Part shown: positions 18,867 through 63,367 of the stretch, piece by piece
How positions within the stretch are numbered: position 1 is the stretch's first letter
Layout of the letters: each line of letters starts with the position of its first letter
Assembly: GCA_963082975.1 (NCBI GenBank)
Contig: OY720344.1
Coordinates: 79,286,053-79,350,052 of the forward strand
Source of the DNA: Labia minor
Taxonomy: Eukaryota > Arthropoda > Insecta > Dermaptera > Spongiphoridae
Length of the DNA stretch: 64,000 nt
Direction: 5' to 3'
Made by a program: the position numbers and the translations under genes
The notes under the pieces: generated by a model
Seen by the model: the letters and a program-made list of their open reading frames with translations, nothing else
The model's database searches: none
Told to the model about the DNA's origin: nothing

Positions 18867-19944
18867 TTTCAAAATAACTCCTGAGAAATTTTCTTCAGGG
18901 CCTCGGTTTTTAATCTGTAGGTATTCTAAATGTTCTAATTTGGACAAATAAGATGGCCAGGTTCTATTACTTGAATGAAACCGGATTTCTAATTATCTTA
19001 AATTAGAAAAGTTTATTTCGCTTATAGAAGACCTAATAATTAAAACTAGAAAGTGCAAATCTTTTACATCTTTAACATCAACTCTCCATTTTGGTCGAGT
19101 CCACTCCGAATAGAGGACAAGAAAAAAAAATGGTTTTGGAAGAATGACAAACACACGTATTAAGAAAGCCAGAAGACCGGCTCGTAAAAAAGTAATTAAA
19201 GGAATTAAATTTTCAAACTGATTAAGCATATTCAAGGCATTTTTATGAATATCGTGGCATAAATCTATTTTCAAATTTGTTAATGGTAACCTTTTTTCAA
19301 CAAACACTTTAAATAGTTGTTTTCTATAAAAGGATTTAATTTCTATTAACATTACTTTTTTCAAGGAATTAAATTTTCAAACTGATTAAGCATTTTCAAG
19401 GCATTTTTAATAATATCGTGGCATAAATCTATTTTCAAATTTGTTAATTGTAACCTTTTTTCAAGAAACACTTTAACTAGTTGTTCGGTAAAAGGATTTA
19501 ATTTCTATTAACATTACTTTTTTCAATTTACCTAATGGTGCAATTTCAAAATAACTCCTGAGAAATTTTCTTCAGGGCCTCGGTATTTAATCTGTAGGTA
19601 TTCTAAATGTTCTAATTTGGACAAATAAGATGGCCAGGTTATATTACTTGAATGAAACCGGATTTATAATTATATTAAATTAGAAAAGTTTACTTCGCTT
19701 ATAGAAGACCTAAAAATTAAAACTAGTAAGTGCAAATATTTTACAACTTTAGACATCAACTCTGCATTTTGGTCGGGTCCACTCCGAATAGAGGACATTT
19801 AACATTACTTATTTAAATTTACCTAATGGTGCAATTTCAAAATAACTCCTGAGAAATTTTCTTCAGGGCCTCGGTATTTAATCAGTAGGCATTCTAAATG
19901 TTCTAATTTGGAAATGGTAACCTTTTTTCAACAAAAATTTAAAT

Positions 19945-20695
19945 CAGGGATGGGCAAACTTTTTTATGATGCGGTCTACTTCTAATTTTTTTACAATAAG
20001 TCGGTCCACCAGATATTTATTAAAATAATAATAATAAACAATGTGGTATAAATGTACAAAGGTAACTAAAAAAATAGAATAAGAAAGGAACCTAGGTATA
20101 TATTTTCAAACAAAATTTAAAGATTATAAAAGTATAAAAATAGCAAGTTCATAAGAAATATTCTGATTCGAATTATTATTTAAGATAAAGTCATGTGAAA
20201 TTGTCCACATTAGAAGATTTACACTGCATATCCTCTGCTAATTTAGTAAATCTTGGTGTATAATTACTAACTGCCAGTCTTGTACTGAATTCGAGGTGAT
20301 TGTCTGTAAGACGGGAGCGATATTTTGATTTAATTATATTGATCGTAGAAAATGCAGATTCACATATGTAGGTAGAGCCAAAGAACGATGTTAAATTTAA
20401 TGCGAGACCTTTTAAATTAGGATACTTAACTTCGTCCATTAAATTCCAAAAAATATTTGTAGGATCTGAATTATGTGCTTTTAAAATTATGTCATTTTGA
20501 AGAAGAAGAACTTCATCTTCCTCAATAGTTATAGAAAACAATTCGTTAATATTTTTGGTTATTTCTTCCCCGAGTAATGGAATTTTTTATATGCTAAGGA
20601 GTAGTTTAAGTAAAAAAGGCAATGAGTAAAGGCGATCATTTAAATTGACTCGGCGGTCCACCAGTCGATGGCGATCGACTTAATGCCCATCTCTG
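19945..20695 (-). mobile_element. hAT-type element, internally deleted, copy 1 (complete ends)
   Basis: The ends CAGGGATGGGCAAAC (19945) and GCCCATCTCTG (to 20695) are imperfect terminal inverted repeats. The 8 bp string ATTTAAAT flanks both sides (19937-19944 and 20696-20703), as expected for hAT insertion. The - strand (20541-20191) encodes the C-terminal dimerisation region of a hAT transposase: LTSFFGSTYICESAFSTINI, IKSKYRSRLTDNHLE, then a natural stop. The domain resembles that of GTF2IRD2-like hAT proteins. The N-terminal and catalytic parts are absent, so it could only be mobilised in trans. It landed in the TTTAAATAGTTG part of a satellite unit. Confidence 0.9.
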
Positions 20696-22048
20696 ATTTA
20701 AATAGTTGTTCTGTAAAATGATTTAATTTCTATTAACATTACTTATTTCAATTTACCTAATGGTGCAATTTCAAAATAACTCCTGAGAAATTTTCTTCAG
20801 GGCCTCGCTATTTAATCTGTAGTTATTCTAAATGTTCTAATTTGGACAAATAAGATGGCCAGGTTCTATTACTTGAATGAAACCGGATTTATAATTATAT
20901 TAAATTAGAAAAGTTTACTTCGCTTATAGAAGACCTAAAAATTAAAACTAGTAAGTGCAAATATTTTACAACTTTAGACATCAACTCTGCATTTTGTTCG
21001 TGTCCACTCCGAATAGAGGACAAGTAAAAAAAAATGTGGGTTTAATTAAGCATTTTCAAGGCATTTTTAAGAATATCGTGGCATAAATCTATTTTGAAAT
21101 TTGTTAATGGTAACCTTTTTTCAACAAACACTTTAAATAGTGGTTCTGTAAAAGGATATTATTTCTATTAACATTACTTATTTCAATTTACCTAATGGTG
21201 CAATTTCAAAATAACTCCTGAGATATTTTCTTCAGCGCCTTGGTATTTAATCTGTAGTTATTCTAAATGTTCTAATTTGGACATTTAAGATGGCCAGGTT
21301 CTATTACTTGAATGAAACCGGATTTATAATTATATTAAATTAGAAAAGTTTACTTCGCTTATAGAAGACCTAATAATTAAAACTAGAAAGTGCAAATATT
21401 TTACAACTTTAGACATCAACTCTGCATTTTGTTCGGGTCCACTCCGAATAGAGGACATTTAACATTACTTATTTAATTTTACCTAATGATTAAGCATTTT
21501 CAAGGCATTTTTAAGAATATCGTGGTTCAAATCTATTTTCAAATTTGTTATTGGTAAGATTTTTTAAACAAACACTTTAAATAGTTGTTCTGTAAAAGGA
21601 TATTATTTCTATTAACATTACTTATTTCAATTTACCTAATGGTGCAATTTCAAAATAACCCCTGAGAAATTTTCTTCAGGGCCTCGGTATTTAATCTGTA
21701 GTTATTCTAAATGTTCTAATTTGGACAAATAAGATGGCCAGGTTCTATTACTTGAATGAAACCGGATTTATAATTATATTAAATTAGAAAAGTTTACTTC
21801 GCTTATAGAAGACCTAAAAATTAAAACTAGTAAGTGCAAATATTTTACAACTTTAGACATCAACTCTGCATTTTGTTCGGGTCCACTCCGAATAGAGGAC
21901 ATTTAACATTACTTATTTAAATTTACCTAATGGTGCAATTTCAAAATAACTCCTGAGAAATATTCTTCAGGGCCTCGGTATTTAATCAGTAGGCATTCTA
22001 AATGTTCTAATTTGGAAATGGTAACCTTTTTTCAACAAAAATTTAAAT

Positions 22049-22563
22049 CAGGGATGGGCAAACTTTTTTATGATGCGGTCTTCTTCTAATTTTTTTTCAA
22101 TAAGTCGGTCCACCAGATATTTATTAAAATAATAATAATAAACAATGTGGTATAAATGTACATAGGTAACTAAAAAAATAGAATAAGAAAGGAACCTAGG
22201 TATATATTTTCAAACAAAATTTAAAGATTATAAAAGTATAAAAATAGCAAGTTCATAAGAAATATTCTGATTCGAATTATTATTTAAGATAAAGTCATGT
22301 GAAATTGTCCGCATTAGAAGATTTACACTGCATATCCTCTGCTAATTTAGTAAATCTTGGTGTATAATTACTAACTGCCAGTCTTGTACTGAATTCGAAG
22401 TGATTGTCTGTAAGACTGGAGCGATATTTTGATTTAATTATATTGATCGTAGAAAATGCAGATTCACATAGGTAGGTAGAGCCAAAGAACGATGTTAAAT
22501 TTAATGCGAGACCTTTTAAATTAGGATACTTAACTTCGTCCATTAAATTCCAAAAAATATTTG
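22049..22563 (-). pseudogene. hAT fragment, copy 2 (right end deleted)
   Basis: Same left end (CAGGGATGGGC) and transposase C-terminus (22594-22295 frame) as copy 1. The sequence jumps from CCAAAAAATATTTG directly into the satellite word TTCTGTAAAAGGATA, losing about 245 bp including the right terminal repeat. The junction has a TTGT microhomology. Confidence 0.9.
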
Positions 22564-24347
22564 TTCTGTAAAAGGATATTATTTCTATTAACATTACTTA
22601 TTTCAATTTACCTAATGGTGCAATTCCAAAATAACTCCTGAGAAATTTTCTTCAGGGCCTCGGTATTTAATCTGTAGTTATTCTAAATGTTCTAATTTGG
22701 AGAAATAAGATGGCCAGGTTCTATTACTTGAATGAAACCGGATTTATAATTATATTAAATTAGAAAAGTTTACTTCGCTTATAGAAGACCTAAAAATTAA
22801 AACTAGTAAGTGCAAATATTTTACAACTTTAGACATCAACTCTGCATTTTGTTCGTGTCCACTCCGAATAGAGGACAAGTAAAAAAAAATGTGGGTTTAA
22901 TTAAGCATTTTCAAGGCATTTTTAAGAATATCGTGGCATAAATCTATTTTGAAATTTGTTAATGGTAACCTTTTTTCAACAAACACTTTAAATAGTGGTT
23001 CTGTAAAAGGATATTATTTCTATTAACATTACTTATTTCAATTTACCTAATGGTGCAATTTCAAAATAACTCCTGAGAAATTTTCTTCAGCGCCTTGGTA
23101 TTTAATCTGTAGTTATTCTAAATGTTCTAATTTGGACATTTAAGATGGCCAGGTTCTATTACTTGAATGAAACCGGATTTATAATTATATTAAATTAGAA
23201 AAGTTTACTTCGCTTATAGAAGACCTAATAATTAAAACTAGAAAGTGCAAATATTTTACAACTTTAGACATCAACTCTGCATTTTGTTCGGGTCCACTCC
23301 GAATAGAGGACATTTAACATTACTTATTTAATTTTACCTAATGATTAAGCATTTTCAAGGCATTTTTAAGAATATCGTGGTTCAAATCTATTTTCAAATT
23401 TGTTATTGGTAAGATTTTTTAAACAAACACTTTAAATAGTTGTTCTGTAAAAGGATATTATTTCTATTAACATTACTTATTTCAATTTACCTCTTGGTGC
23501 AATTTCAAAATAACCCTTGAGAAATTTTCTTCAGGGCCTCGGTATTTAATCTGTAGTTATTCTAAATGTTCTAATTTGGACAAATAAGATGGCCAGGTTC
23601 TATTACTTGAATGAAACCGGATTTATAATTATATTAAATTAGAAAAGTTTACTTCGCTTATAGAAGACCTAATAATTAAAACTAGAAAGTGCAAATATTT
23701 TACAACTTTAGACATCAACTCTGCATTTTGTTCGGGTCCACTCCGAATAGAGGACATTTAACATTACTTATTTAATTTTACCTAATGATTAAGCATTTTC
23801 AAGGCATTTTTAAGAATATCGTGGTTCAAATCTATTTTCAAATTTGTTATTGGTAAGATTTTTTAAACAAACACTTTAAATAGTTGTTCTGTAAAAGGAT
23901 ATTATTTCTATTAACATTACTTATTTCAATTTACCTAATGGTGCAATTTCAAAATAACCCCTGAGAAATTTTCTTCAGGGCCTCGGTATTTAATCTGTAG
24001 TTATTCTAAATGTTCTAATTTGGACAAATAAGATGGCCAGGTTCTATTACTTGAATGAAACCGGATTTATAATTATATTAAATTAGAAAAGTTTACTTCG
24101 CTTATAGAAGACCTAAAAATTAAAACTAGTAAGTGCAAATATTTTACAACTTTAGACATCAACTCTGCATTTTGTTCGGGTCCACTCCGAATAGAGGACA
24201 TTTAACATTACTTATTTAAATTTACCTAATGGTGCAATTTCAAAATAACTCCTGAGAAATATTCTTCAGGGCCTCGGTATTTAATCAGTAGGCATTCTAA
24301 ATGTTCTAAGTTGGAAATGGTAACTTTTTTTCAACAAAAATTTAAAT

Positions 24348-24862
24348 CAGGGATGGGCAAACTTTTTTATGATGCGGTCTTCTTCTAATTTTTTTACAAT
24401 AAGTCGGTCCACCAGATATTTATTAAAATAATAATAATAAACAATGTGGTATAAATGTACAAAGGTAACTAAAAAAACAGAATAAGAAAGGAACCTAGGT
24501 ATATATTTTCAAACAAAATTTAAAGATTATAAAAGTATAAAAATAGCAAGTTCATAAGAAATATTCTGATTCGAATTATTATTTAAGATAAAGTCATGTG
24601 AAATTGTCCGCATTAGAAGATTTACACTGCATATCCTCTGCTAATTTAGTAAATCTTGGTGTATAATTACTAACTGCCAGTCTTGTACTGAATTCGAAGT
24701 GATTGTCTGTAAGACGGGAGCGATATTTTGATTTAATTATATTGATCGTAGAAAATGCAGAATCACATAGGTAGGTAGAGCCAAAGAACGATGTTAAATT
24801 TAATGCGAGACCTTTTAAATTAGGATACTTAACTTCGTCCATTAAATTCCAAAAAATATTTG
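24348..24862 (-). pseudogene. hAT fragment, copy 3 (right end deleted)
   Basis: Identical deletion junction to copy 2, with a few substitutions (for example a Glu to Asp change in the CESAFSTI motif). It was copied as part of a higher-order satellite block rather than by transposition. Confidence 0.9.
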
Positions 24863-26202
24863 TTCTGTAAAAGGATATTATTTCTATTAACATTACTTAT
24901 TTCAATTTACCTAATGGTGCAATTTCAAAATAACTCCTGAGAAATTTTCTTCAGGGCCTCGGTATTTAATCTGTAGTTATTCTAAATGCTCTAATTTGGA
25001 CAAATAAGATGGCCAGGTTCTATTACTTGAATGAAACCGGATTTATAATTATATTAAATTAGAAAAGTTTACTTCGCTTATAGAAGACCTAAAAATTAAA
25101 ACTAGTAAGTGCAAATATTTTACAACTTTAGACATCAACTCTGCATTTTGTTCGTGTCCACTCCGAATAGAGGACAATTAAAAAAAAATGTGGGTTTAAT
25201 TAAGCATTTTCAAGGCATTTTTAAGAATATCGTGGCATAAATCTATTTTGAAATTTGTTAATGGTAACCTTTTTTCAACAAACACTTTAAATAGTGGTTC
25301 TGTAAAAGGATATTATTTCTATTAACATTACTTATTTCAATTTACCTAATGGTGCAATTTCAAAATAACTCCTGAGAAATTTTCTTCAGCGCCTTGGTAT
25401 TTAAACTGTAGTTATTCTAAATGTTCTAATTTGGACAAATAAGATGGCCAGGTTCTATTACTTGAATGAAACCGGATTTATAATTATATTAAATTAGAAA
25501 AGTTTACTTCGCTTATAGAAGACCTAATAATTAAAACTAGAAAGTGCAAATATTTTACAACTTTAGACATCAACTCTGCATTTTGTTCGGGTCCACTCCG
25601 AATAGAGGACATTTAACATTACTTATTTAATTTTACCTAATGATTAAGCATTTTCAAGGCATTTTTAAGAATATCGTGGTTCAAATCTATTTTCAAATTT
25701 GTTATTGGTAAGATTTTTTAAACAAACACTTTAAATAGTTGTTCTGTAAAAGGATATTATTTCTATTAACATTACTTATTTCAATTTACCTAATGGTGCA
25801 ATTTCAAAATAACCCCTGAGAAATTTTCTTCAGGGCCTCGGTATTTAATCTGTAGTTATCCTAAATGTTCTAATTTGGACAAATAAGATGGCCAGGTTCT
25901 ATTACTTGAATGAAACCGGATTTATAATTATATTAAATTAGAAAAGTTTACTTCGCTTATAGAAGACCTAAAAATTAAAACTAGTAAGTGCAAATATTTT
26001 ACAACTTTAGACATCAACTCTGCATTTTGTTCGGGTCCACTCCGAATAGAGGACATTTAACATTACTTATTTAAATTTACCTAATGGTGCAATTTCAAAA
26101 TAACTCCTGAGAAATATTCTTCAGGGCCTCGGTATTTAATCAGTAGGCATTCTAAATGTTCTAAGTTGGAAATGGTAACTTTTTTTCAACAAAAATTTAA
26201 AT

Positions 26203-26717
26203 CAGGGATGGGCAAACTTTTTTATGATGCGGTCTTCTTCTAATTTTTTTACAATAAGTCGGTCCACCAGATATTTATTAAAATAATAATAATAAACAAT
26301 GTGGTATAAATGTACATAGGTAACTAAAAAAATAGAATAAGAAAGGAACCTAGGTATATATTTTCAAAGAAAATTTAAAGATTATAAAAGTATAAAAATA
26401 GCAAGTTCATAAGAAATATTCTGATTCGAATTATTATTTAAGATAAAGTCATGTGAAATTGTCCGCATTAGAAGATTTACACTGCATATCCTCTGCTAAT
26501 TTAGTAAATCTTGGTGTATAATTACTAACTGCCAGTCTTGTACTGAATTCGAAGTGATTGTCTGTAAGACGGGAGCGATATTTTGATTTAATTATATTGA
26601 TCGTAGAAAATGCAGATTCACATAGGTAGGTAGAGCCAAAGAACGATGTTAAATTTAATGCGAGACCTTTTAAATTAGGATACTTAACTTCGTCCATTAA
26701 ATTCCAAAAAATATTTG
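26203..26717 (-). pseudogene. hAT fragment, copy 4 (right end deleted)
   Basis: Identical deletion junction to copies 2 and 3 and the same flanking satellite variants. The 1855 bp offset from copy 3 marks the higher-order repeat period. Confidence 0.9.
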
Positions 26718-27989
26718 TTCTGTAAAAGGATATTATTTCTATTAACATTACTTATTTCAATTTACCTAATGGTGCAATTTCAAAATAACTCCTGAGAAAT
26801 TTTCTTCAGGGCCTCGGTATTTAATCTGTAGTTATTCTAAATGCTCTAATTTGGACAAATAAGATGGCCAGGTTCTATTACTTGAATGAAACCGGATTTA
26901 TAATTATATTAAATTAGAAAAGTTTACTTCGCTTATAGAAGACCTAAAAATTAAAACTAGTAAGTGCAAATATTTTACAACTTTAGACATCAACTCTGCA
27001 TTTTGTTCGTGTCCACTCCGAATAGAGGACAATTAAAAAAAAATGTGGGTTTAATTAAGCATTTTCAAGGCATTTTTAAGAATATCGTGGCATAAATCTA
27101 TTTTGAAATTTGTTAATGGTAACCTTTTTTCAACAAACACTTTAAATAGTGGTTCTGTAAAAGGATATTATTTCTATTAACATTACTTATTTCAATTTAC
27201 CTAATGGTGCAATTTCAAAATAACTCCTGAGAAATTTTCTTCAGCGCCTTGGTATTTAAACTGTAGTTATTCTAAATGTTCTAATTTGGACAAATAAGAT
27301 GGCCAGGTTCTATTACTTGAATGAAACCGGATTTATAATTATATTAAATTAGAAAAGTTTACTTCGCTTATAGAAGACCTAATAATTAAAACTAGAAAGT
27401 GCAAATATTTTACAACTTTAGACATCAACTCTGCATTTTGTTCGTGTCCACTCCGAATAGAGGACAAGTAAAAAAAAAATGTGGGTTTAATTATGCATTT
27501 TCAAGGTATTTTTAAGAATATCGTGGCATAAATCTATTTTGAAATTTGTTAATGGTAACCTTTTTTCAACAAACACTTTAAATAGTGGTTCTGTAAAAGG
27601 ATATTATTTCTATTAACATTACTTATTTAAATTTACCTAATGGTGCAATTTCAAAACAACTCCTGAGAAATATTGTTCAGTGCCTCGGAATTTAATCTGT
27701 AGGTATTCTAAATGTTCTAATTTGGACAAATAAGATGGCCAGGTTCTATTACTTGAATGAAACTGGATTTATCTTATCTTATTATGCTAGCTAAAATTGT
27801 ATATATCTATCTATTTATCTATAACCATTGGTTCTCAAAAACCGCTCTAACGATTTTTTTCAAATTCACACTAGATATAGTATTTATAAAGAAAAATTGA
27901 GTTTTATTGATCACATCTCTTGAAACTTACAGCTTCATTATTAATTTCTTAATTAAAAATTATATATGGGTGTGACGTCATCAATTTTA

Positions 27990-28322
27990 CTCCCGCCTTT
28001 TTTTAAAAGATATTGTATTAATATTTTTTTTATATTTAAAATATTTTAAAATAAAATTAAATTTCGAAATAAAATTAAAAATATTTATTTTTAATAAAAT
28101 ATATATATATTTTTATTAATCTCTCTCAAAAAAAAATAACAACAAAATAAAATACGGTTGGTTCACTCCCGCCTTTTTTTAAAAGATATTGTATTAATAT
28201 TTTTTTTATATTTAAAATATTTTAAAATTTATTATTTAATTTCGAAATAAAATTAAAAATATTTATTTTTAATAAAATATATATATATTTATTAATCTCT
28301 CTCAAAAAAAAAACAACAAAAC
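27990..28322. repeat. about 173 bp tandem duplication inside the 27772-29132 insertion
   Basis: ACTCCCGCCTTTTTTTAAAA followed by the same AT-rich run through TTAATCTCTCTCAAAAAAAA occurs at about 27990-28145 and again at about 28164-28322, with small indels. It is non-coding. Confidence 0.85.
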
Positions 28323-28611
28323 AAATAAATGTCTTTGAAAGATGGTAAAAATATCTTTTTAATTATCAAAATATCATAGAACATTGGTAAGAACAATTGT
28401 TTTTACTCCCCGAGTTCGAAGGATCGAAACTCGCCGCGTGCATTTTTTTTTTATCTATTTTCGTGATTTATTTATTCATTGTTCTTTTATTAATTAAGTT
28501 TTAGATAGTTTTATAATTTTTAATATTTTTTCAATAAAATATTATTTAATACAATTAATAATTGTAATAAATAATTAAAGAATAGTATATCAATATTTTT
28601 TAAAGGGTAGA

Positions 28612-28700
28612 GCGAGCTCGGTGTCCCAGGTATTAATATTACCAGCCAAATCCAATAATAATGAATCATTTTTTTTAACTTAAGTACCGGGTCCCGGTAT
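28612..28700. repeat. terminal repeat copy 1 of the Helitron-like insertion
   Basis: Contains AGCTCGGTGTCCCAGGTATT, then CCAGCCAAATCC, then TTTAACTTAAGTACCGGGTC. It lacks the GAGCCGAGGCTC part, so the hairpin is lost. The same block recurs at 28791-28893 and 29031-29132. Confidence 0.85.
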
Positions 28701-28790
28701 ACATATTTATGTATTATTGAGGACCCCAAGTTCCATGCATTGATGCAACATTTAATAATTGTAATAAATAATTAAAGAATTGTATATCAG

Positions 28791-28893
28791 CTCGGTGTCC
28801 CAAGTATTAATATTACCAGCCAAACCCAATATAATAATGAATTATTTTTTTTTAACTTAATTACCTAGCCGAGGCTCGGGGTCCCGGTGTGAT
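28791..28893. repeat. terminal repeat copy 2 of the Helitron-like insertion
   Basis: AGCTCGGTGTCCCAAGTATT through GCCGAGGCTCGGGGTCCCGG. The hairpin is partly kept (CTAGCCGAGGCTCGG). Confidence 0.85.
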
Positions 28894-29030
28894 CTTAATA
28901 TATTGTCAGAATTAGATAAATAATGTAGAGAGAAAAATTATTTAAAAATAGATATTTATTTAAATGAAAGAAAATTATTTAATTTACAGAATGAAAATGT
29001 CTATAATAATGTCTAAACATTTTTTCGAGC

Positions 29031-29132
29031 GACAGCTCGGTATCCCAGGTATTAATATTATCAGCCAAACCCAATAATAATGAATCATTTTTTTTAACTT
29101 AAGTACCGAGCCGAGGCTCGGGGTCCCGGTAC
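29031..29132. repeat. terminal repeat copy 3, forming the right end of the insertion
   Basis: AGCTCGGTATCCCAGGTATT through the perfect hairpin CCGAGCC-GA-GGCTCGG and GGTCCCGGTAC. It directly abuts resumed satellite sequence. Confidence 0.85.
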
Positions 29133-29314
29133 TAAATGTCTTAAATTAGAAAAGTTTACTTCGCTTATAGAAGACCTAGAAATTAACGCTAGAAAGTGCA
29201 AATATTTTACAACTTTGGACATCAACTCTGCATTTTGGTCGGGTCCAATCCGACTAGAGGACAAGTAAAAAAAATGTGGGTTTGGAAGAATGACAAACAC
29301 ACGTATTAAGAATG

Positions 29315-32300
29315 CCAGAAGACCGGCTCGTAAAAAAGTATATAAAGGAATTAAATTTTCAAACTGATTAACCATTTTCAAGGTATTTTTAAGAATATCG
29401 TGGCATAAATCTATTTTGAAATTTGTTAATGGTAACCTTTTTTCAACAAACACTTTAAATAGTTGTTCTGTAAAAGGATATTATTTCTATTAACATTACT
29501 TATTTCAACTTACCTAATGGTGCAATTTCAAAATAACTCCTGAGAAATTTTCTTCAGGGCCTCGGTATTTAATCTGTAGATATCCTAAATCTTCTAATTT
29601 GGACAAATCAGATGGCCAGGTTCTTTTACTTGAATGAAACCGGATTTATAATTGTCTTAAATTAGAAAAGTTTACTTCGCTTATAGAAAAGCTAAAAATT
29701 AAAACTAGAAAGTGCAAATATTTTACAACTTTAGACATCAACTCTGAATTTTGGTCGGGTCCACTCCGAATAGAGGACAATTAAAAAAAAATGTGGGTTT
29801 GGAAGAATGACAAACACACGTATTAACAATGCCAGAAGACCGGCTCGTAAAAAAGTATATAAAGGAATTAAATTTTCAAACTGATTAAGCATTTTCAAGG
29901 CATTTTTAAGAATATCGTGGCATAAATCTATTTTGAAATTTGTTAATGGTAACCTTTTTTACAACAAACACTTTAAATAGTTGTTCTTTAAAAGGATATT
30001 ATTTCTATTAACATTACTTATTTAAATTTACCTAATGGTGCAATTTCAAAACAACTCCTGAGAAATATTGTTCAGTGCCTCGGAATTTAATCTGTAGGTA
30101 TTCTAAATGTTCTAATTTGGACAAATAAGATGGCCAGGTTCTATTACTTGAATGAAACTGGATTTATAAATGTCTTAAATTAGAAAAGGTTACTTCGCTT
30201 ATAGAAGACCTAGAAATTAACACTAGAAAGTGCAAATATTTTACAACTTTGGACATCAATTCTGCATTTTGGTCGGGTCAAATCCGACTAGAGGACAAGT
30301 AAAAAAAATGTGGGTTTGGAAGAATGACAAACCCACGTATTAAGAATGCCAGAAGACCAGCTCGTAAAAAAGTATATAAAGGAATTAAATTTTCAAACTG
30401 ATTAACCATTTTCAAGGTATTTTTAAGAATATAGTGGCATAAATCTATTTTGAAATTTGTTAATGGTAACCTTTTTACAACAAACACTTTAAATAGTTGT
30501 TCTGTAAAAGGATATTATTTCTATTAACATTACTTATTTCAATTTACCTAATGGTATTTTTAAGAATATATTTCAAAACAACTCCTGAGAAATATTGTTC
30601 AGTGCCTCGGAATTTTATTCTGTAGGTATTCTAAATGTTATAATTTGGACAAATAAGATGGCCAGGTTCTATTACTTGAATGAAACTGGATTTATAAATG
30701 TCTTAAATTAGAAAAGGTTACTTCGCTTATAGAAGACCTAGAAATTAACACTAGAAAGTGCAAATATTTTACAACTTTTGACATCAACTCTGCATTTTGG
30801 TCGGGTTCAATCCGACTAGAGGACAAGTAAAAAAAATGTGGGTTTGGAAGAATGACAAACACACGTATTAAGAATGCCAGAAGACCGGCTCGTAAAAAAG
30901 TATATAAAGGAATTAAATTTTCAAACTGATTAACCATTTTCAAGGTATTTTTAAGAATATAGTGGCATAAATCTATTTTGAAATTTGTTAATGCTAACCT
31001 TTTTTCAACAAACACTTTAAATAGTTGTTCTGTAAAAGGATATTATTTCTATTAACATTACTTATTTCACTTTACCTAATGGTGCAATTTCAAAACATCT
31101 CCTGAGAAATATTGTTCAGTGCCTCGGAATTTTATTCTGTAGGTATTCTAAATGTTATAATTTGGACAAATAAGATGGCCAGGTTCTATTACTTGAATGA
31201 AACCGGATTTATAATTGTCTTAAATTAGAAAAGTTTACTTCGCTTATAGAAGAGCTAAAAATTAAAACTAGAAAGTGCAAATATTTTACAAATTTAGACA
31301 TCAACTCTGCATTTTGGTCGGGTCCACTCCGAATAGAGGACAATTAAAAAAAATTTGGGTTTGGAAGAATGACAAACACACGTATTAACAATGCCAGAAG
31401 ACCGGCTCGTAAAAAACTATATAAAGGAATTAAATTTTCAAAATGATTAAGCATTTTCAAGGCATTTTTAAGAATATCGTTGCATAAATCTATTTTGAAA
31501 TTTGTTAATGGTAACCTTTTTTCAACAAACACTTTAAATAGTTGTTCTGTAAAAGGATATTATTTCTATTAACATTACTTATTTCAATTTACCTAATGGT
31601 GCAATTTCAAAATAACTCCTGAGAAATTTTCTTCAGGGCCTCGGTATTTAATCTGTAGATATTCTAAATCTTCTAATTTGGACAAATCAGATGGCCAGGT
31701 TCTTTTACTTGAATGAAACCGGATTTATAATTGTCTTAAATTAGAAAAGTTTAATTCGCTTATAGAAGAGCTAAAAATTAAAACTAGAAAGTGCAAATAT
31801 TTTACAACTTTATACATCAACTCTGCATTTTGGTCGGGTCCACTCCGAATATAGGACAATTAAAAAAAAATGTGGGTTTGGAAGAATGACAAACACACGT
31901 ATTAACAATGCCAGAAGACCGGCTCGTAAAAAAGTATATAAAGGAATTAAATTTTCAAACTGATTAACCATTTTCAAGGTATTTTTAAGAATATCGTGGC
32001 ATAAATCTATTTTGAAATTTGTTAATGGTAACCTTTTTTCAACAAACACTTTAAATAGTTGTTCTGTAAAAGGATATTATTTCTATTAACATTACTTATT
32101 TCAACTTACCTAATGGTGCAATTTCAAAATAACTCCTGAGAAATTTTCTTCAGGGCCTCGGTATTTAATCTGTAGATATCCTAAATCTTCTAATTTGGAC
32201 AAATCAGATGGCCAGGTTCTTTTACTTGAATGAAACCGGATTTATAATTGTCTTAAATTAGAAAAGTTTACTTCGCTTATAGAAAAGCTAAAAATTAAAA

Positions 32301-52370: not shown

Positions 52371-55300
52371 TTATAAATGTCTTAAATTAGAAAAGTTTAC
52401 TTCGCTTATAGAAGACCTAGAAATTAACACTAGAAAGTGCAAATATTTTACAACTTTGGACATCAACTCTGCATTTTGGTCGGGTCCAATCCGACTAGAG
52501 GACAAGTAAAAAAAATGTGGGTTTGGAAGAATGACAAACACACGTATTAAGAATGCCAGAAGACCGGCTCGTAAAAAAGTATATAAAGGAATTAAATTTT
52601 CAAACTGATTAACCATTTTCAAGGTATTTTTAAGAATATAGTGGCATAAATCTATTTTGAAATTTGTTAATGGTAACCTTTTTTCAACAAACACTTTAAA
52701 TAGTTGTTCTGTAAAAGGATATTATTTCTATTAACATTACTTATTTCAATTTACCTAATGGTGCAATTTCAAAACAACTCCTGAGAAATATTGTTCAGTG
52801 CCTCGGAAATTTATTCTGTAGGTATTCTAAATGTTATAATTTGGACAAATAAGATGGCCAGGTTCTATTACTTGAATGAAACTGGATTTATAAATGTCTT
52901 AAATTAGAAAAGGTTACTTCGCTTATAGAAGACCTAGAAATTAACACTAGAAAGTGCAAATATTTTACAACTTTATACATCAACTCTGCATTTTGGTCGG
53001 GTCCACTCCGAATAGAGGACAATTAAAAAAAAATGTGGGTTTGGAAGAATGACAAACACACGTATTAACAATGCCAGAAGACCGGCTCGTAAAAAAGTAT
53101 ATAAAGGAATTAAATTTTCAAACTGATTAACCATTTTCAAGGTATTTTTAAGAATATAGTGGCATAAATCTATTTTGAAATTTGTTAATGGTAACCTTTT
53201 TTCAACAAACACTTTAAATAGTTGTTCTGTAAAAGGATATTATTTCTATTAACATTACTTATTTCAATTTACCTAATGGTGCAATTTCAAAACAACTCCT
53301 GAGAAATATTGTTCAGTGCCTCGGAATTTTATTCTGTAGGTATTCTAAATGTTATAATTTGGACAAATAAGATGGCCAGGTTCTATTACTTGAATGAAAC
53401 TGGATTTATAAATGTCTTAAATTAGAAAAGGTTACTTCGCTTATAGAAGACCTAGAAATTAACACTAGAAAGTGCAAATATTTTACAACTTTGGACATCA
53501 ACTCTGCATTTTGGTCGGGTCCAATCCGACTAGAGGACAAGTAAAAAAAATGTGGGTTTGGAAGAATGACAAACACACGTATTAAGAATGCCAGAAGACC
53601 GGCTCGTAAAAAAGTATATAAAGGAATTAAATTTTCAAACTGATTAACCATTTTCAAGGTATTTTTAAGAATATAGTGGCATAAATCTATTTTGAAATTT
53701 GTTAATGGTAACCTTTTTTCAACAAACACTTTAAATAGTTGTTCTGTAAAAGGATATTATTTCTATTAACATTACTTATTTCAATTTACCTAATGGTGCA
53801 ATTTCAAAATAACTCCTGAAAAATTTTCTTAAGGGCCTCGGTATTTAATCTGTAGATATCCTAAATCTTCTAATTTGGACAAATCAGATGGCCAGGTTCT
53901 TTTACTTGAATGAAACCGGATTTATAATTGTCTTAAATTAGAAAAGTTTACTTCGCTTATAGAAGAGCTAAAAATTAAAACTAGAAAGTGCAAATATTTT
54001 ACAACTTTAGACATCAACTCTGCATTTTGGTCGGGTCCACTCCGAATAGAGGACAATTAAAAAAAAATGTGGGTTTGGAAGAATGACAAACACACGTATT
54101 AACAATGCCAGAAGACCGGCTCGTAAAAAACTATATAAAGAAATTAAATTTTCAAACTGATTAAGCATTTTCAAGGCATTTTTAAGAATATCGTTGCATA
54201 AATCTATTTTGAAATTTGTTAATGGTAACCTTTTACAACAAACACTTTAAATAGTTGTTCTGTAAAAGGATATTATTTCTATTAACATTACTTATTTCAA
54301 TTTACCTAATGGTGCAATTTCAAAATAACTCCTGAGAAATTTTCTTCAGGGCCTCGGTATTTAATCTGTAGATATTCTAAATCTTCTAATTTGGACAAAT
54401 CAGATGGCTAGGTTCTTTTACTTGAATGAAACCGGATTTATAATTGTCTTAAATTAGAAAAGTTTACTTCGCTTATAGAAGAGCTAAAAATTAAAACTAG
54501 AAAGTGCAAATATTTTACAACTTTATACATCAACTCTGCATTTTGGTCGGGTCCACTCCGAATAGAGGACAATTAAAAAAAAATGTGGGTTTGGAAGAAT
54601 GACAAATTTGTTAATGGTAACCTTTTTTTCAACAAACACTTTAAATAGTTGTTCTTCAAAAGGATATTATTTCTATTAACATTACTTATTTAAATTTACC
54701 TAATGGTGCAATTTCAAAACAACTCCTGAGAAATATTGTTCAGTGCCTCGGAATTTAATCTGTAGGTATTCTAAATGTTCTAATTGGACAAATAAGATGG
54801 CCAGGTTCTATTACTTGAATGAAACCGGATTTATAATTATATTAAATTAGAAAAGTTTACTTCGCTTATAGAAGACCTAATAATTAAAACTAGAAAGTGG
54901 AAATATTTTACAACTTTAGACATCAACTCTGCATTTTGTTCGGGTCCTCTCCGAATAGAGGACATTTAACATTACTTATTTAATTTTACCTAATGATTAA
55001 GCATTTTCAAGGCATTTTTAAGAATATCGTGGTTCAAATCTATTTTCAAATTTGTTATTGGTAAGATTTTTTAAACAAACACTTTAAATAGTTGTTCTGT
55101 AAAAGGATATTATTTCTATTAACATTACTTATTTCAATTTACATAATGGTGCAATTTCAAAACAACTCCTGAGAAATATATTCAGTTTCTCGGAATTTTA
55201 TTCTGTAGGTATTCTAAATGTTATAATTTGGACAAATAAGATGGCCAGGTTCTATTACTTGAATGAAACTGGATTTATAAATGTCTTAAATTAGAAAAGG

Positions 55301-58300
55301 TTACTTCCCTTATAGAAGACCTAGAAATTAACACTAGAAAGTGCAAATATTTTACAACTTTGGACATCAACTCTGCATTTTGGTCGGGTCCAATCCGACT
55401 AGAGGACAAGTAAAAAAAATGTGGGTTTGGAAGAATGACAAACAGGAATTAAATTTTCAAACTGATTAACCATTTTCAAGGTATTTTTAAGAATATAGTG
55501 GCATAAATCTATTTTGAAATTTCTTAATGGTAACCTTTTTTCAACAAACACTTTAAATAGTTGTTCTGTAAAAGGATATTATTTCTATTAACATTACTTA
55601 TTTCAATTTACCTAATGGTGCAATTTCAAAATAACTCCTGAGAAATATTGTTCAGTTCCTCGGAATTTAATCTGTAGGTATTCTAAATGTTCTAATTGGA
55701 CAAATAAGATGGCCAGGTTCTATTACTTGAATGAAACTGGATTTATAAATGTCTTAAATTAGAAAAGTTTACTTCGCTTATAGAAGACCTAGAAATTAAC
55801 ACTAGAAAGTGCAAATATTTTACAACTTTGGACATCAACTCTGCATTTTGGTCGGGTCCAATCCGACTAGAGGACAAGTAAAAAAAATGTGGGTTTGGAA
55901 GAATGACAAACACACGTATTAAGAATGCCAGAAGACCGGCTCGTAAAAAAGTATATAAAGGAATTAAATTTTCAAACTGATTAACCATTTTCAAGGTATT
56001 TTTAAGAATATAGTGGCATAAATCTATTTTGAAATTTGTTAATGGTAACCTTTTTTCAACAAACACTTTAAATAGTTGTTCTGTAAAAGGATATTATTTC
56101 TATTAACATTACTTATTTCAATTTACCTAATGGTGCAATTTCAAAACAACTCCTGAGAAATATTGTTCAGTGCCTCGGAAATTTATTCTGTAGGTATTCT
56201 AAATGTTATAATTTGGACAAATAAGATGGCCAGGTTCTATTACTTGAATGAAACTGGATTTATAAATGTCTTAAATTAGAAAAGGTTACTTCGCTTATAG
56301 AAGACCTAGAAATTAACACTAGAAAGTGCAAATATTTTACAACTTTATACATCAACTCTGCATTTTGGTCGGGTCCACTCCGAATAGAGGACAATTAAAA
56401 AAAAATGTGGGTTTGGAAGAATGACAAACACACGTATTAACAATGCCAGAAGACCGGCTCGTAAAAAAGTATATAAAGGAATTAAATTTTCCAACTGATT
56501 AAGCATTTTCAAGGTATTTTTAAGAATATAGTGGCATAAATCTATTTTGAAATTTGTTAATGGTAACCTTTTTTCAACAAACACTTTAAATAGTTGTTCT
56601 GTAAAAGGATATTATTTCTATTAACATTACTTATTTCAATTTACCTAATGGTGCAATTTCAAAACAACTCCTGAGAAATATTGTTCAGTGCCTCGGAATT
56701 TAATCTGTAGGTATTCTAAATGTTCTAATTGGACAAATAATATGGCCAGGTTCTATTACTTGAATGAAACTGGATTTATAAATGTCTTAAATTAGAAAAG
56801 TTTACTTCGCTTATAGAAGACCTAGAAATTAACACTAGAAAGTACAAATATTTTACAACTTTGGACATCAACTCTGCATTTTGGTCGGGTCCAATCCGAC
56901 TAGAGGACAAGTAAAAAAAATGTGGGTTTGGAAGAATGACAAACACACGTATTAAGAATGCCAGAAGACCGGCTCGTAAAAAAGTATATAAAGGAATTAA
57001 ATTTTCAAACTGATTAACCATTTTCAAGGTATTTTTAAGAATATAGTGGCATAAATCTATTTTGAAATTTGTTAATGGTAACCTTTTTTCAACAAACACT
57101 TTAAATAGTTGTTCTGTAAAAGGATATTATTTCTATTAACATTACTTATTTCAATTTACCTAATGGTGCAATTTCAAAACAACTCCTGAGAAATATTGTT
57201 CAGTGCCTCGGAATTTTATTCTGTAGGTATTCTAAATGTTATAATTTGGACAAATAAGATGGCCAGGTTCTATTACTTGAATGAAACTGGATTTATAAAT
57301 GTCTTAAATTAGAAAAGGTTACTTCGCTTATAGAAGACCTAGAAATTAACACTAGAAAGTGCAAATATTTTACAACTTTGGACATCAACTCTGCATTTTG
57401 GTCGGGTCCAATCCGACTAGAGGACAAGTAAAAAAAATGTGGGTTTGGAAGAATGACAAACACACGTATTAAGAATGCCAGAAGACCGGCTCGTAAAAAA
57501 GTATATAAAGGAATTAAATTTTCAAACTGATTAACCATTTTCAAGGTATTTTTAAGAATATAGTGGCATAAATCTATTTTGAAATTTGTTAATGGTAACC
57601 TTTTTTCAACAAACACTTTAAATAGTTGTTCTGTAAAAGGATATTATTTCTATTAACATTACTTATTTCAATTTACCTAATGGTGCAATTTCAAAATAAC
57701 TCCTGAAAAATTTTCTTAAGGGCCTCGGTATTTAATCTGTAGATATCCTAAATCTTCTAATTTGGACAAATCAGATGGCCAGGTTCTTTTACTTGAATGA
57801 AACCGGATTTATAATTGTCTTAAATTAGAAAAGTTTACTTCGCTTATAGAAGAGCTAAAAATTAAAACTAGAAAGTGCAAATATTTTACAACTTTAGACA
57901 TCAACTCTGCATTTTGGTCGGGTCCACTCCGAATAGAGGACAATTAAAAAAAAATGTGGGTTTGGAAGAATGACAAACACACGTATTAACAATGCCAGAA
58001 GACCGGCTCGTAAAAAACTATATAAAGAAATTAAATTTTCAAACTGATTAAGCATTTTCAAGGCATTTTTAAGAATATCGTTGCATAAATCTATTTTGAA
58101 ATTTGTTAATGGTAACCTTTTACAACAAACACTTTAAATAGTTGTTCTGTAAAAGGATATTATTTCTATTAACATTACTTATTTCAATTTACCTAATGGT
58201 GCAATTTCAAAATAACTCCTGAGAAATTTTCTTCAGGGCCTCGGTATTTAATCTGTAGATATTCTAAATCTTCTAATTTGGACAAATCAGATGGCTAGGT

Positions 58301-58560
58301 TCTTTTACTTGAATGAAACCGGATTTATAATTGTCTTAAATTAGAAAAGTTTACTTCGCTTATAGAAGAGCTAAAAATTAAAACTAGAAAGTGCAAATAT
58401 TTTACAACTTTATACATCAACTCTGCATTTTGGTCGGGTCCACTCCGAATAGAGGACAATTAAAAAAAAATGTGGGTTTGGAAGAATGACAAATTTGTTA
58501 ATGGTAACCTTTTTTTCAACAAACACTTTAAATAGTTGTTCTTCAAAAGGATATTATTTC
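52371..58560. repeat. 3.4 to 3.9 kb higher-order duplication
   Basis: Units at 52371 and 52973 recur at 55743 and 56345 (offset 3372). Units at 53406 and the short deletion unit at 54601 recur at 57293 and 58488 (offset 3887). The deletion junction GAATGACAAATTTGTTAATG is identical at both sites, so the second is a copy. Other short units (AATGACAAACAGGAATTAAA at 55433) occur only once. Confidence 0.75.
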
Positions 58561-61158
58561 TATTAACATTACTTATTTAAATTTACCTAATGGTGCAATT
58601 TCAAAACAACTCCTGAGAAATATTGTTCAGTGCCTCGGAATTTAATCTGTAGGTATTCTAAATGTTCTAATTGGACAAATAAGATGGCCAGGTTCTATTA
58701 CTTGAATGAAACTGGATTTATAAATGTCTTAAATTAGAAAAGTTTACTTCGCTTATAGAAGACCTAGAAATTAACACTAGAAAGTGCAAATATTTTACAA
58801 CTTTGGACATCAACTCTGCATTTTGGTCGGGTCCAATCCGACTAGAGGACAAGTAAAAAAAATGTGGGTTTGGAAGAATGACAAACACACGTATTAAGAA
58901 TGCCAGAAGACCGGCTCGTAAAAAAGTATATAAAGGAATTAAATTTTCAAACTGATTAAGCATTTTCAAGGTATTTTTAAGAATATAGTGGCATAAATCT
59001 ATTTTGAAATTTGTTAATGGTAACCTTTTTTCAACAAACACTTTAAATAGTTGTTCTGTAAAAGGATATTATTTCTATTAACATTACTTATTTCAATTTA
59101 CCTAATGGTGCAATTTCAAAACAACTCCTGAGAAATATATTCAGTGCCTCGGAATTTTATTCTGTAGGTATTCTAAATGTTATAATTTGGACAAATAAGA
59201 TGGCCAGGTTCTATTACTTGAATGAAACTGGATTTATAAATGTCTTAAATTAGAAAAGTTTACTTCGCTTATAGAAGACCTAGAAATTAACACTAGAAAG
59301 TGCAAATATTTTACAACTTTGGACATCAACTCTGCATTTTGGTCGGGTCCAATCCGACTAGAGGACAAGTAAAAAAAATGTGGGTTTGGAAGAATGACAA
59401 ACACACGTATTAACAATGCCAGAAGACCGGCTCGTAAAAAACTATATAAAGGAATTAAATTTTCAAACTGATTAAGCATTTTCAAGGTATTTTTAAGAAT
59501 ATAGTGGCATAAATCTATTTTGAAATTTGTTAATGGTAACCTTTTTTCAACAAACACTTTAAATAGTTGTTCTGTAAAAGGATATTATTTCTATTAACAT
59601 TACTTATTTCAATTTACCTAATGGTGCAATTTCAAAACAACTCCTGAGAAATATTGTTCAGGGCCTCGGTATTTAATCTGTAGATATCCTAAATCTTCTA
59701 ATTTGGACAAATCAGATGGCCAGGTTCTTTTACTTGAATGAAACCGGATTTATAATTCTCTTAAATTAGAAAAGTTTACTTCGCTTATAGAAGAGCTAAA
59801 AATTAAAACTAGAAAGTGCAAATTTTTTACAACTTTAGACATCAACTCTGCATTTTGGTCGGGTCCACTCCGAATAGAGAACAATTAAAAAAAAATGTGG
59901 GTTTGGAAGAATGACAAACACACGTATTAACAATGCCAGAAGACCGGCTCGTAAAAAACTATATAAAGGAATTAAATTTTCAAACTGATTAAGCATTTTC
60001 AAGGCATTTTTAAGAATATCGTTGCATAAATCTATTTTGAAATTTGTTAATGGTAACCTTTTTTCAACAAACACTTTAAATAGTTGTTCTGTAAAAGGAT
60101 ATTATTTCTATTAACATTACTTATTTAAATTTACCTAATGGTGCAATTTCAAAATAACTCCTGAGAAATTTTCTTCAGGGCCTCGGTATTTAATCTGTAG
60201 ATATTCTAAATCTTCTAATTTGGACAAATCAGATGGCCAGGTTCTTTTACTTGAATGAAACCGGATTTATAATTGTCTTAAATTAGAAAAGTTTACTTCG
60301 CTTATAGAAGAGCTAAAAATTAAAACTAGAAAGTGCAAATATTTTACAACTTTATACATCAACTCTGCATTTTGGTCGGGTCCACTCCGAATAGAGGACA
60401 AGTAAAAAAAATGTGGGTTTGGAAGAATGACAAACACACGTATTAAGAATGCCAGAAGACCGGCTCGTAAAAAAGTATATAAAGGAATTAAATTTTCAAA
60501 CTGATTAACCATTTTCAAGGTATTTTTAAGAATATAGTGGCATAAATCTATTTTGAAATTTGTTAATGGTAACCTTTTTTCAACAAACACTTTAAATAGT
60601 TGTTCTGTAAAAGGATATTATTTCTATTAACATTACTTATTTCAATTTACCTAATGGTGCAATTTCAAAATAACTCCTGAGAAATATTGTTCAGTGCCTC
60701 GGAATTTAATCTGTAGGTATTCTAAATCTTCTAATTTGGACAAATCAGTTGGCCAGGTTCTTTTACTTGAATGAAACCGGATTTATAATTGTCTTAAATT
60801 AGAAAAGTTTACTTCGCTTATAGAAGAGCTAAAAAAAAAAACTAGAAAGTGCAAATATTTTACAACTTTAGACATCAACTCTGCATTTTGGTCGGGTCCA
60901 CTCCGAATAGAGGACAATTAAAAAAAAAAAGCGGTGCGTGTACTTATGTACGCGCGTGAGAAGTTATACTGCTTTGGCATCATTAAAAAAATAGTTTTTA
61001 ATTGCATGCAAATAATTAATTACAATAAAATAATAGAAGGATTGGAAAAGGATAATCAACAAAGTTCAGTTTAAATTTGAAAAATTAAATAAATAAATAT
61101 TTATTTTCTTACATTAAGTCTAACATAAATTGTCTTATTATTCGAATTGTATTTTTAA

Positions 61159-61912
61159 TTAAATGATGTCCACTTCCATAGTATCTTCCCGCAATGTCTG
61201 AATCGGAACTTGAGTTATCAGTGGCTTATGATAACTAAAATATGATACGAAAAGTTTTGTCTTAACAGCGTTGAGATATCGTACAAATACAGCATCTATG
61301 GTAGTGCCATGTCGTGTTGTCGAAATCAGAGGATTATTATTCATGGCTAAATTCAAGTCATTTTGGAGGAAATCAATAAGTGGACGAGCATCTTCACGGG
61401 AAAAATTGACGTTGAAGTCTCCACTTAAAATTATCGGTAACTTGTCTTCTCCTCTACCAAGATATTTTATCTCCAGCTGTTGTATATGGCCATAATATTC
61501 TTTTCAGGAAATGAATGATGTCGTCCATTTTTTGATTTGGAGTAATGTAAATTACCATCAATACAATTTTGTTGCCATCTTCCATTTTGCATTCAGCTGC
61601 ACAAGCCTCACTAACTGATGTCACTGTTGAGCTTGCCAATTCCGCCTGTCTTACAGTCATATCAATGTTTGGAGTAATGATATTGGTAGTCTCGTGCATA
61701 TTCTGATAAATCGCAACTCCTCCAGCTCGAACATTTGATCGCTTATATTGTATTATGCAATTGAAATTTGGTATACTAATCGACTCTTCATTGGCTAACC
61801 AGGTTTCATTTAAAAGTAAAACATTCGATTTTTGCATAATTGGATCAATGAGATCAATGGAATGAGCACGGAGACTTTGACAATTAAAAGTATATATTGC
61901 CAATGTTGACAT
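61159..61912 (-). pseudogene. endonuclease/exonuclease/phosphatase (EEP) domain gene of the mobile element, one frameshift
   Basis: The - strand reads YTFNCQSLRAHSIDL, LLLNETWLANEESISIPNF, RAGGVAIYQNM and VLMVIYITPNQKMDDIIHFL (61912-61454). After a frameshift near 61470 it continues with LPIILSGDFNVNFSRED and ISTTRHGTTIDAVFVRYL to a stop at 61159. NETW, the SGDFN motif and the TTRHGTTIDAVF tail are hallmark EEP-fold catalytic regions. Homologues of this style are, to my knowledge, found with PIF1-helicase Helentrons, and EEP endonucleases also occur in non-LTR elements. Total length is near 250 codons, close to a complete domain. The nearby (TCTA)n tract (61912-61930) may mark a replication-slippage zone. 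One frameshift makes it inactive as read, unless it is a sequencing error. Confidence 0.85.
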
Positions 61913-61950
61913 CTATCTATCTATCTATTTATTTGGTTGGTATTAGATTG

Positions 61951-61953
<3 letters not shown>

Positions 61954-61989
<36 letters not shown>
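61954..61989. repeat. (AT)n microsatellite
   Basis: A run of about 18 AT dinucleotides inside the Helentron-like insertion, upstream of the endonuclease reading frame on the - strand. Confidence 0.95.
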
Positions 61990-61990
<1 letters not shown>

Positions 61991-62146
61991 TCTTGGAATT
62001 ATTATAATTTTCTACACACCTTAGATTAGATATGACATCAAGAATTCAACAAGATTCTTCATATTTTGTGTTTAATTAAAAAATTGTTAATAATCTATCC
62101 ATGGGATGGCATATATGGTTAAAATAAGATAATAATGTTGGGGATT

Positions 62147-62238
62147 CGTCATAGCCTAGTGGGTAGAGCGCTCGCTTGCTTTGAGCGCTATGACGTAGTC
62201 GAAGAGAGACATGGTAGGTTCGAATCCTACTTCAGGCA
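62147..62238 (+). ncRNA. tRNA-like sequence with intact RNA polymerase III boxes
   Basis: Box A TAGCCTAGTGGG (62152-62163) and box B GGTTCGAATCC (62217-62227) both match the consensus. A perfect T-arm, GTAGG-TTCGAAT-CCTAC, encloses box B. The centre is not tRNA-like: CGTCATAGC (62147-62155) pairs perfectly with GCTATGACG (62187-62195), and GCGCTC pairs with GAGCGC inside it. No 7 bp acceptor stem closes and the boxes are further apart than in a plain tRNA. It may be a tRNA-derived SINE head or a small pol III-type transcript carried by the element. Confidence 0.55.
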
Positions 62239-62351
62239 AATAAAAATTTATTTTTCTGGAAAAACAAAAAAACTGTTAATTTTTCGTGTCACACATCTTA
62301 AAATTTCACTCCCCATCAATTTTCCATAACGCGCCTAAAGAAGTATAACTT

Positions 62352-63367
62352 CAAAAAATGTGGGTTTGGAAGAATGACAAACACACGTATTAACAATGCC
62401 AGAAGACCGGCTCGTAAAAAATTATATAAAGGAATTAAATTTTCAAACTGATTAAGCATTTTCAAGGCATTTTTAAGAATATCGTGGCATAAATCTATTT
62501 AGAAATTTGTTAATGGTAACCTTTTTTCTACAAACACTTTAAATAGTTGTTCTGTAAAAGGATATTATTTCTATTAACATTACTTATTTCAATTTACCTA
62601 ATGGTGCAATTTCAAAATAACTCCTGAGAAATTTTCTTCAGGGCCTCGGTATTTAATCTGTAGATATCCTAAATCTTCTAATTTGGATAAATCAGATGGC
62701 CAGGTTCTTTTACTTGAATGAAACCGGATTTATAATTGTCTTAAATTAGAAAAGTTTACTTCGCTTATAGAAGAGCTAAAAATTAAAACTAGAAAGTGCA
62801 AATATTTTACAACTTTAGACATCAACTCTGCATTTTGATCGGGTCCACTCCGAATAGAGGACAATTAAAAATAATGTGGGTTTGGAAGAATGACAAACAC
62901 ACGTATTAACAATGCCAGAAGACCGGCTCGTAAAAAAGTATATAAAGGAATTAAATTTTCAAACTGATTAAGCATTTTCAAATTTGTTAATGGTAACCTT
63001 TTTTTCAACAAACACTTTAAATAGTTGTTCTTCAAAAGGATATTATTTCTATTAATATTACTTATTTAAATTTACCTAATGGTGCAATTTCAAAATAACT
63101 CCTGAGAAATATTGTTCAGTGCCTCGGAATTTAATCTGTAGGTATTCTAAATGTTCTAATTGGACAAATAAGATGGCCAGGTTCTATTACTTGAATGAAA
63201 CTGGATTTATAAATGTCTTAAATTAGAAAAGTTTACTTCGTTTATAGAAGACCTAGAAATTAACACTAGAAAGTGCAAATATTTTATAACTTTGGACATC
63301 AACTCTGCATTTTGGTCGGGTCCATTCCGACTAGAGGACAAGTAAAAAAAATGTGGGTTTGGAAGAA
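62352..63367. repeat. satellite array remainder, two units right of the Helentron-like insertion
   Basis: One subtype B unit and one subtype A unit, with box copies near 62831 and 63304. The first continues the unit interrupted at 60930. A deletion joins AGCATTTTC to AAATTTGTTAATGG near 62980. The array stops within GTGGGTTTGGAAGAA at about 63367 and Gypsy sequence follows. Confidence 0.9.

Follow-up and report, generated by a model that had tools for sequence, protein, structure and literature searches.

A satellite array in Labia minor with a part-Gypsy, part leucine-rich-like unit and a Gypsy remnant at its left edge

Positions given here are those of the window, a stretch of 64,000 nucleotides from contig OY720344.1 of Labia minor, in which the GC content outside the array (positions 1-18400) is 25.3%. 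The array proper (~44.5 kb; Table 1) is satellite DNA in the sense of a long head-to-tail run of similar units, and it keeps to one strand throughout, with 0 minus-strand unit matches within it. Unit matches begin at 18798 if 39 bp of Gypsy sequence are counted, and their total cover is 39,500 bases; the six non-unit stretches of more than 20 bp that interrupt the array are all insertions, among them a hAT element that recurs three times, shortened each time. Searches with Rfam (gathering thresholds) and ARAGORN found nothing. An earlier note on this DNA had placed the end of the array exactly (63367) and its start at 18867, which is 30 bp inside the true start (18837). The period of about 517 bp that it gave for every unit describes the core, where the period is 517-518 bp, but not the left ~9 kb (18837-27772), in which units are mostly shortened or rearranged and TRF periods are 435-444. 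Fifty-six copies span the unit at >90% identity to the reference copy at 30000, and a 276-bp segment gave 85 matches, of which 78 are complete. Each unit combines ~102 bp of Ty3/Gypsy reverse transcriptase (RT) on the plus strand with leucine-rich pieces, their frames broken, that make up most of the remainder on the minus strand; unit positions 103-189 (~87 bp) lie outside both assigned halves.

Table 1. Positions of the array, its parts, its insertions and its flanks in the window
Feature	Position	Strand	Evidence or remark
Left flank with a broken RT fragment of Ty3/Gypsy, the proposed parent for the Gypsy piece of the unit	18430-18836	+	Ty3 RT 4ol8; 39-bp overlap
Satellite array, core unit 517-518 bp	18837-63367		Tiling, unit matches; head to tail
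Left part of array, flank-like alleles, mostly shortened or rearranged units	18837-27772		Tiling; 14/14 copies of the 39-bp piece with flank alleles at both variable sites
hAT element in array	19945-20696		Dimer_Tnp_hAT E 4.4e-6; target duplication of 8 bp (ATTTAAAT); terminal inverted repeats imperfect, starting CAGGGATGGGCA
Shortened hAT insertion copy	22049-22554		Duplicated along with array
Shortened hAT insertion copies	24348-24853 and 26203-26708		Duplicated along with array
1360-bp insertion in one unit	27773-29132		Sequence
Homogenised core, most units regular at 517-518 bp; long exact internal duplications	29133-60927		Tiling, exact matching
Gypsy RT piece, example in one core unit (unit positions 1-102)	29162-29263	+	Tiling, unit matches
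Leucine-rich pieces A then B, example from one core unit; frame breaks and stops present	29343-29672	-	tblastn
1425-bp insertion, endonuclease pieces of retrotransposon type and tRNA-like stretch	60928-62352	-	Exo_endo_phos E 0.0012, Exo_endo_phos_2 E 6.5e-4, both under curated cutoffs
Right-flank stretch separating the array from the second Gypsy fragment, possible continuation of leucine-rich pseudogene	63368-63607	-	64-codon open run in A-piece frame
Second Ty3/Gypsy fragment (RT plus RNase H), strand opposite to left fragment	63608-64000	-	Ty3 RT/RH 4ol8 residues 252-370, E 4.4e-18; RT_RNaseH_2 E 1.8e-14

Within the unit, the Gypsy piece spans 35 codons (SLIEDLEINTRKCKYFTTLDINSAFWSGPIRLEDK, unit positions 1-102) rather than the 40 counted earlier. 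The Pfam model RVT_1 matches it weakly (E 0.037, 14.2 bits versus a cutoff of 29.6), and its sole PDB match is to a leucine-rich repeat (LRR) protein (E 1.6). A unit made purely of Gypsy RT appears disfavoured, because the RVT_1 match stops four residues after EDK and resumes in no plus-strand frame, and the other two plus-strand frames of the unit's next part match no Pfam family. The left flank is similar to residues 75-139 of Ty3 RT 4ol8 (E 2.6e-6), with homology covering 18607-18834; before 18607 the Gypsy likeness is by eye only, and the upstream piece gave no Pfam match. This flank carries two in-frame stops, continues into the unit's own Gypsy piece and ends within it, and its last 39 bp (18798-18836), common to the unit, are the sole overlap between the two. 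The Gypsy half proposed in the earlier note is thus borne out by the flank, the match of the unit's piece itself being weak, and the longer parent fragment that had been placed at the left border is real, as seen from the overlap (39 bp only) together with the sharing of alleles described below.

The minus-strand pieces reported earlier were all recovered, including the frame break after LKLHH and the stops. Of 11 constructs in which the two leucine-rich pieces were present together, 3 matched the Pfam model LRR_14, as did 0 of 10 controls made by reversal or shuffling; scores were 15-18.6 bits, below the curated cutoff of 40 bits (best E with real sequence 0.011 and 0.0051). The E value of 0.011 is close to noise, since 3 of 9 shuffled controls gave stray matches (E 0.046-0.24), to families other than LRR. 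Pfam matches to LRR families came only from constructs holding both minus-strand pieces; pieces A and B separately, and A and B joined alone, each gave 0 Pfam matches, no LRR model exceeded its curated cutoff for this half, and NCBIfam yielded nothing. PDB matches for A and B together were at noise level (E 0.72 and up) and a longer query had none, while AlphaFold, run without an alignment on the 60-aa B piece, predicted a helical hairpin and not an LRR fold (pLDDT 73.5). Neither relatives of the leucine-rich half nor exact unit patterns were found in viral and genome contigs. The LRR reading of the earlier note is thus supported at sub-threshold level only, by the LRR_14 matches, and is opposed by one predicted fold; Pfam scans of array and right-flank pieces gave no F-box match. 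The minus-strand half probably derives from a dead leucine-rich gene, probably of the F-box/LRR type.

At the right edge, a second Gypsy fragment lies on the strand opposite to the first, a feature absent from the earlier note. The ~237 bp of right flank before it open with a 4-bp microhomology beyond which 9 bp match the A-end of the unit, a length reached by 21 of 2000 shuffles. The flank has an open run of 64 of 79 codons in the A-piece frame, equalled by 17 of 5000 shuffles when a single frame is specified and by 57 of 5000 in any of three, for a stretch that was picked after the frame had been seen. A 58-aa piece of this flank alone matched nothing in Pfam, and one of 8 shuffled-flank constructs (E 8.8e-4) outscored the real flank; Pfam therefore gives no support to the flank being part of the same gene, and its use as proof was dropped. 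Continuation of the leucine-rich pseudogene into the right flank is suggestive only.

Over the shared 39 bp, two sites distinguish the left flank from the consensus of the unit. The flank alleles are present at both sites in 14 of 14 left copies versus 26 of 61 core copies (35 of the 61 have the other pair), and the mean difference from the flank is 1.0 base for left copies and 1.87 for core copies. The left copies look ancestral because of this agreement with the flank, a polarity that is read from two sites that travel together. Alone among 75 matched copies, the leftmost one retains a longer spacer, across which piece B stays in a single frame. Exact matching revealed internal duplications of up to 1756 bp (a megablast self-comparison gave two long duplications only and missed others), the TE copies also tag internal duplications, and allele classes recur in the core, so that the array displays the concerted evolution and higher-order duplication characteristic of satellite DNA.

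Taken as a whole, these observations make it fairly probable that the satellite arose at this site, through a tandem duplication spanning a junction between Gypsy and the pseudogene. The ancestral locus would have joined a broken Gypsy element on the plus strand to a broken leucine-rich pseudogene, probably of F-box/LRR type, on the minus strand. The chimeric unit of ~517 bp would have come from a tandem duplication that broke the Gypsy RT just before LIEDL and the pseudogene at NFS. Unequal exchange may then have multiplied and partly homogenised this unit, and transposons would have inserted in the array and been copied with the units. That unequal crossing-over, and not another process, amplified the array is inferred. 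The site may be the birthplace of the repeat, since the Gypsy remnant still adjoins the left edge of the array. Neither parental join is intact, as both border joins jump within a unit.

It is rather unlikely that the unit is instead wholly transposon-derived, being either a Gypsy of rearranged or composite make-up or one that captured a second TE, in which the non-RT part is leucine-rich-looking on the opposite strand by appearance only. Gypsy fragments on both sides of the array, the lack of an LRR model above cutoff and the helical prediction for one leucine-rich piece are all in keeping with such an origin, but the RT match goes only four residues further than EDK, beyond which no plus-strand frame of the unit's next part matches a Pfam family, and LRR-family matches in Pfam appear only when both minus-strand pieces are present. 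Quite unlikely is birth elsewhere (e.g., on an extrachromosomal circle) followed by insertion beside Gypsy fragments unrelated to the satellite's origin, a history that would suit the mere 39 bp common to flank and unit and the imperfect joins at both borders. Against it, the end of the left flank falls within the very 102 bp of pol that the unit carries, a part with which contact by chance is improbable, and its alleles are common to all 14 left copies.

The antisense strand also holds a 116-aa reading frame. Among the 53 stop-to-stop ORFs of at least 90 aa listed in the window, 26 are this frame. That it is a translated, selected protein is hardly credible, as the frame passes antisense through the Gypsy RT and has no synonymous excess (piece B, 0 synonymous versus 16 non-synonymous; piece A, 5 versus 26); a functional antisense protein was rejected for this absence of codon constraint, and the array most likely encodes nothing. 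A very improbable role is that of a two-way silencing source, with plus-strand transcripts antisense to leucine-rich (F-box/LRR) genes and minus-strand transcripts antisense to Gypsy, for which the Su(Ste) repeats, acting on Stellate, serve as a model. If true, small RNAs of one satellite could target a retrotransposon and, at the same time, a family of host genes.

Related systems share parts of this arrangement. The wheat '250' family is described as a satellite derived from a Ty3/gypsy element (PMC6947457), and is alike in that part of such an element became the tandem repeat unit; in Labia minor, however, Gypsy contributes only about one-fifth of the unit, most of the remainder is antisense and probably genic, and a flanking remnant is kept. 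In the 'first steps' hypothesis of Wong and Choo, as presented in the same source (PMC6947457), satellites start as a partial TE duplicated through unequal crossing-over. The duplication and subsequent expansion of a partial TE are similar here, but the duplicated segment crosses a junction between TE and non-TE sequence, and the array is apparently still at its founding site. A candidate source family for the leucine-rich half is suggested by two wasps, Aphidius ervi and Lysiphlebus fabarum, whose genomes are as poor in GC as the DNA outside the array and whose four largest gene-family expansions are given as F-box/LRR (PMC7257214). Among the literature screened by title and abstract opening, no satellite with a fused Gypsy-plus-LRR unit is reported.

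The beginnings of satellites are often lost, with arrays cut loose from their parents or overwritten. At this locus, the proposed Gypsy parent still borders the array where the flank-like copies lie, and the opposite border may preserve the other parent, so that the birth event, the direction of growth and the later homogenisation of a satellite could be readable from one contig.

The array at 18837-63367 is a chimeric satellite, apparently located at its own founding site. Unit matches span 18798-63367, all of them on the + strand and none on the - strand in a search of the window, and amount to 39,500 unit bases with six interrupting stretches longer than 20 bp. The unit length of about 517 bp claimed in the earlier note holds in the homogenised core (29133-60927; period 517-518 bp), but not in the left part (18837-27772), where the majority of units are shortened or rearranged. 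With the copy at 30000 as reference, 56 copies span the unit at an identity above 90%. A 276-bp segment made up of the A-end and the Gypsy piece has 85 matches; 78 are full-length, 14 of which lie before 27.5 kb and 64 beyond 29 kb. The CpG observed/expected ratio is 0.68 in the array core (29162-60814) versus 1.01 in 1-18400; methylation or the composition of the founder might account for the difference.

Features of the array, its borders and its repeat unit (unit positions counted from the Gypsy start)
Feature	Position	Strand	Details
Gypsy RT	unit 1-102	+	
Stretch between Gypsy RT and piece B	unit about 103-189		
Leucine-rich piece B	unit about 190-330	-	
Leucine-rich piece A	unit about 331-518	-	
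hAT element	19945-20696		left part of array; Dimer_Tnp_hAT E 4.4e-6; 8-bp target duplication
Internally shortened hAT copies, 506 bp	22049-22554, 24348-24853, 26203-26708		three copies
1360-bp insertion	27773-29132		75-nt stretch x3 in right part; direct repeat spaced 176 bp
Insertion	60928-62352		endonuclease pieces; tRNA-like stretch near 62150-62240 (by eye)
Second Gypsy fragment	63608-64000	-	RT and RNase H, E 4.4e-18; RT_RNaseH_2 E 1.8e-14

The left flank (18430-18836) is a broken Gypsy RT. The longer Gypsy fragment previously proposed at this border is borne out by a 76-aa piece matching Ty3 RT (E 2.6e-6, residues 75-139) and by 39 bp in common with the unit, followed by a jump to unit position 335, as would result from internal deletion of a first unit; Pfam finds 0 families in 18430-18606, upstream of the 76-aa piece, where Gypsy was recognised by eye only. 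Within these 39 bp, flank and consensus disagree at two sites, and among 77 array copies of this piece the flank's alleles at both sites occur in 14/14 left copies and 26/61 core copies, with the other allele pair in 35 of the 61 core copies; of the two right-border copies, one has the flank's pair and one the other. Because of this sharing and the smaller mean difference from the flank (1.0 base in left copies versus 1.87 in core copies), the left copies seem to be nearest to the parental sequence and some of the core derived, on the basis of two sites travelling together. Adjoining the flank is a presumed Mariner-like transposase remnant (17950-18420, -), and 13088-17405 (+) contains pieces of a C2H2 zinc-finger gene. 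The first of them matches zf-AD (E 8.9e-5; 23.1 bits, under the cutoff of 28), a hint that the host is an insect.

At the right border, the final unit ends at unit position 129, followed by 4 bp of microhomology, 9 bp of A-end (21/2000 shuffles reach 9), other sequence up to about 63607, and the second Gypsy fragment, a feature missed by the earlier note. This fragment has two in-frame stops, lies on the strand opposite to the left-flank Gypsy and spans a different part of RT; the two could be a single family that an inversion has split. The intervening 63371-63607 (237 bp), picked after its frame had been seen, has an open run of 64 of 79 codons in the frame of piece A, matched in length by 17/5000 shuffles in one given frame and 57/5000 in any of three. 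A 58-aa piece of this region alone has no Pfam match; the region fits a continuation of the leucine-rich pseudogene, which is not proof.

On the - strand, A precedes B, with the previously described frame break after LKLHH and stops; KSFYRKQLFKVF is readable in one frame, via a longer spacer, only in the leftmost of 75 copies (pattern matching at the second break point). With X placed at stops, the + frame of the Gypsy piece extended into the next unit part matches RVT_1 over residues 9-39 (E 0.049, below cutoff), so the RT match ends four residues past EDK; the other two + frames have no Pfam match. Synonymous/non-synonymous changes over 56 aligned unit copies (Gypsy 4/22, A 5/26, B 0/16, remaining part read on - 3/7), set against expected synonymous fractions of 0.219, 0.202, 0.185 and 0.247, respectively, reveal no coding constraint in the unit. 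Given this result, the recurring 116-aa antisense frame (26 of the 53 ORFs listed) is most readily taken as neutral.

The - strand half is probably LRR, as first suggested; its leucine spacing is LRR-like and Pfam LRR_14 matches 3/11 A+B constructs versus 0/10 controls (one reversed, nine shuffles), whereas all these matches fall far under the 40-bit cutoff and the B piece is modelled as helical. LRR_14 matches a 183-aa composite (E 0.011), a 124-aa composite (E 0.0051) and one of eight constructs with shuffled flank (E 8.8e-4), with no match to the 111-aa A+B piece alone; three of the nine shuffles match unrelated Pfam families (E 0.046-0.24), and NCBIfam gives no match. When the PDB is searched with A+B in a 108-aa form, seven rows result, at E 0.72-0.99: TLR4 in four, ParA in one and ATP synthase subunit s, which has an LRR fold, in two. 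The 183-aa query gives none. Since the reversed 183-aa query returns four unrelated rows and an LRR receptor turns up (E 1.6) when the query is just the Gypsy piece, the A+B rows are noise-level. The AlphaFold model of the 60-aa B piece, two predicted helices (pLDDT 73.5), does not support LRR, although folding one short sequence by itself tests this poorly. Outside the array, positions 1-18400 have a GC content of 25.3%; PMC7257214 gives 25.8% and 23.8% for two parasitoids of aphids, Aphidius ervi and Lysiphlebus fabarum, with F-box/LRR as their four largest gene-family expansions (232 and 68 genes).

The array contains exact duplications of up to 1756 bp (offset 3887), and the shortened hAT copies, spread by array duplication, are a natural marker of array growth. 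Both patterns are as predicted by repeated unequal exchange of array blocks, by which the array may have grown. The 60928-62352 insertion is possibly a LINE or a Helentron with SINE; ARAGORN makes no call on its tRNA-like stretch. Satellites derived from transposons, Ty3/gypsy among them, are already known (PMC6947457), and less usual here are a unit that spans a junction and the remnants adjoining the array.
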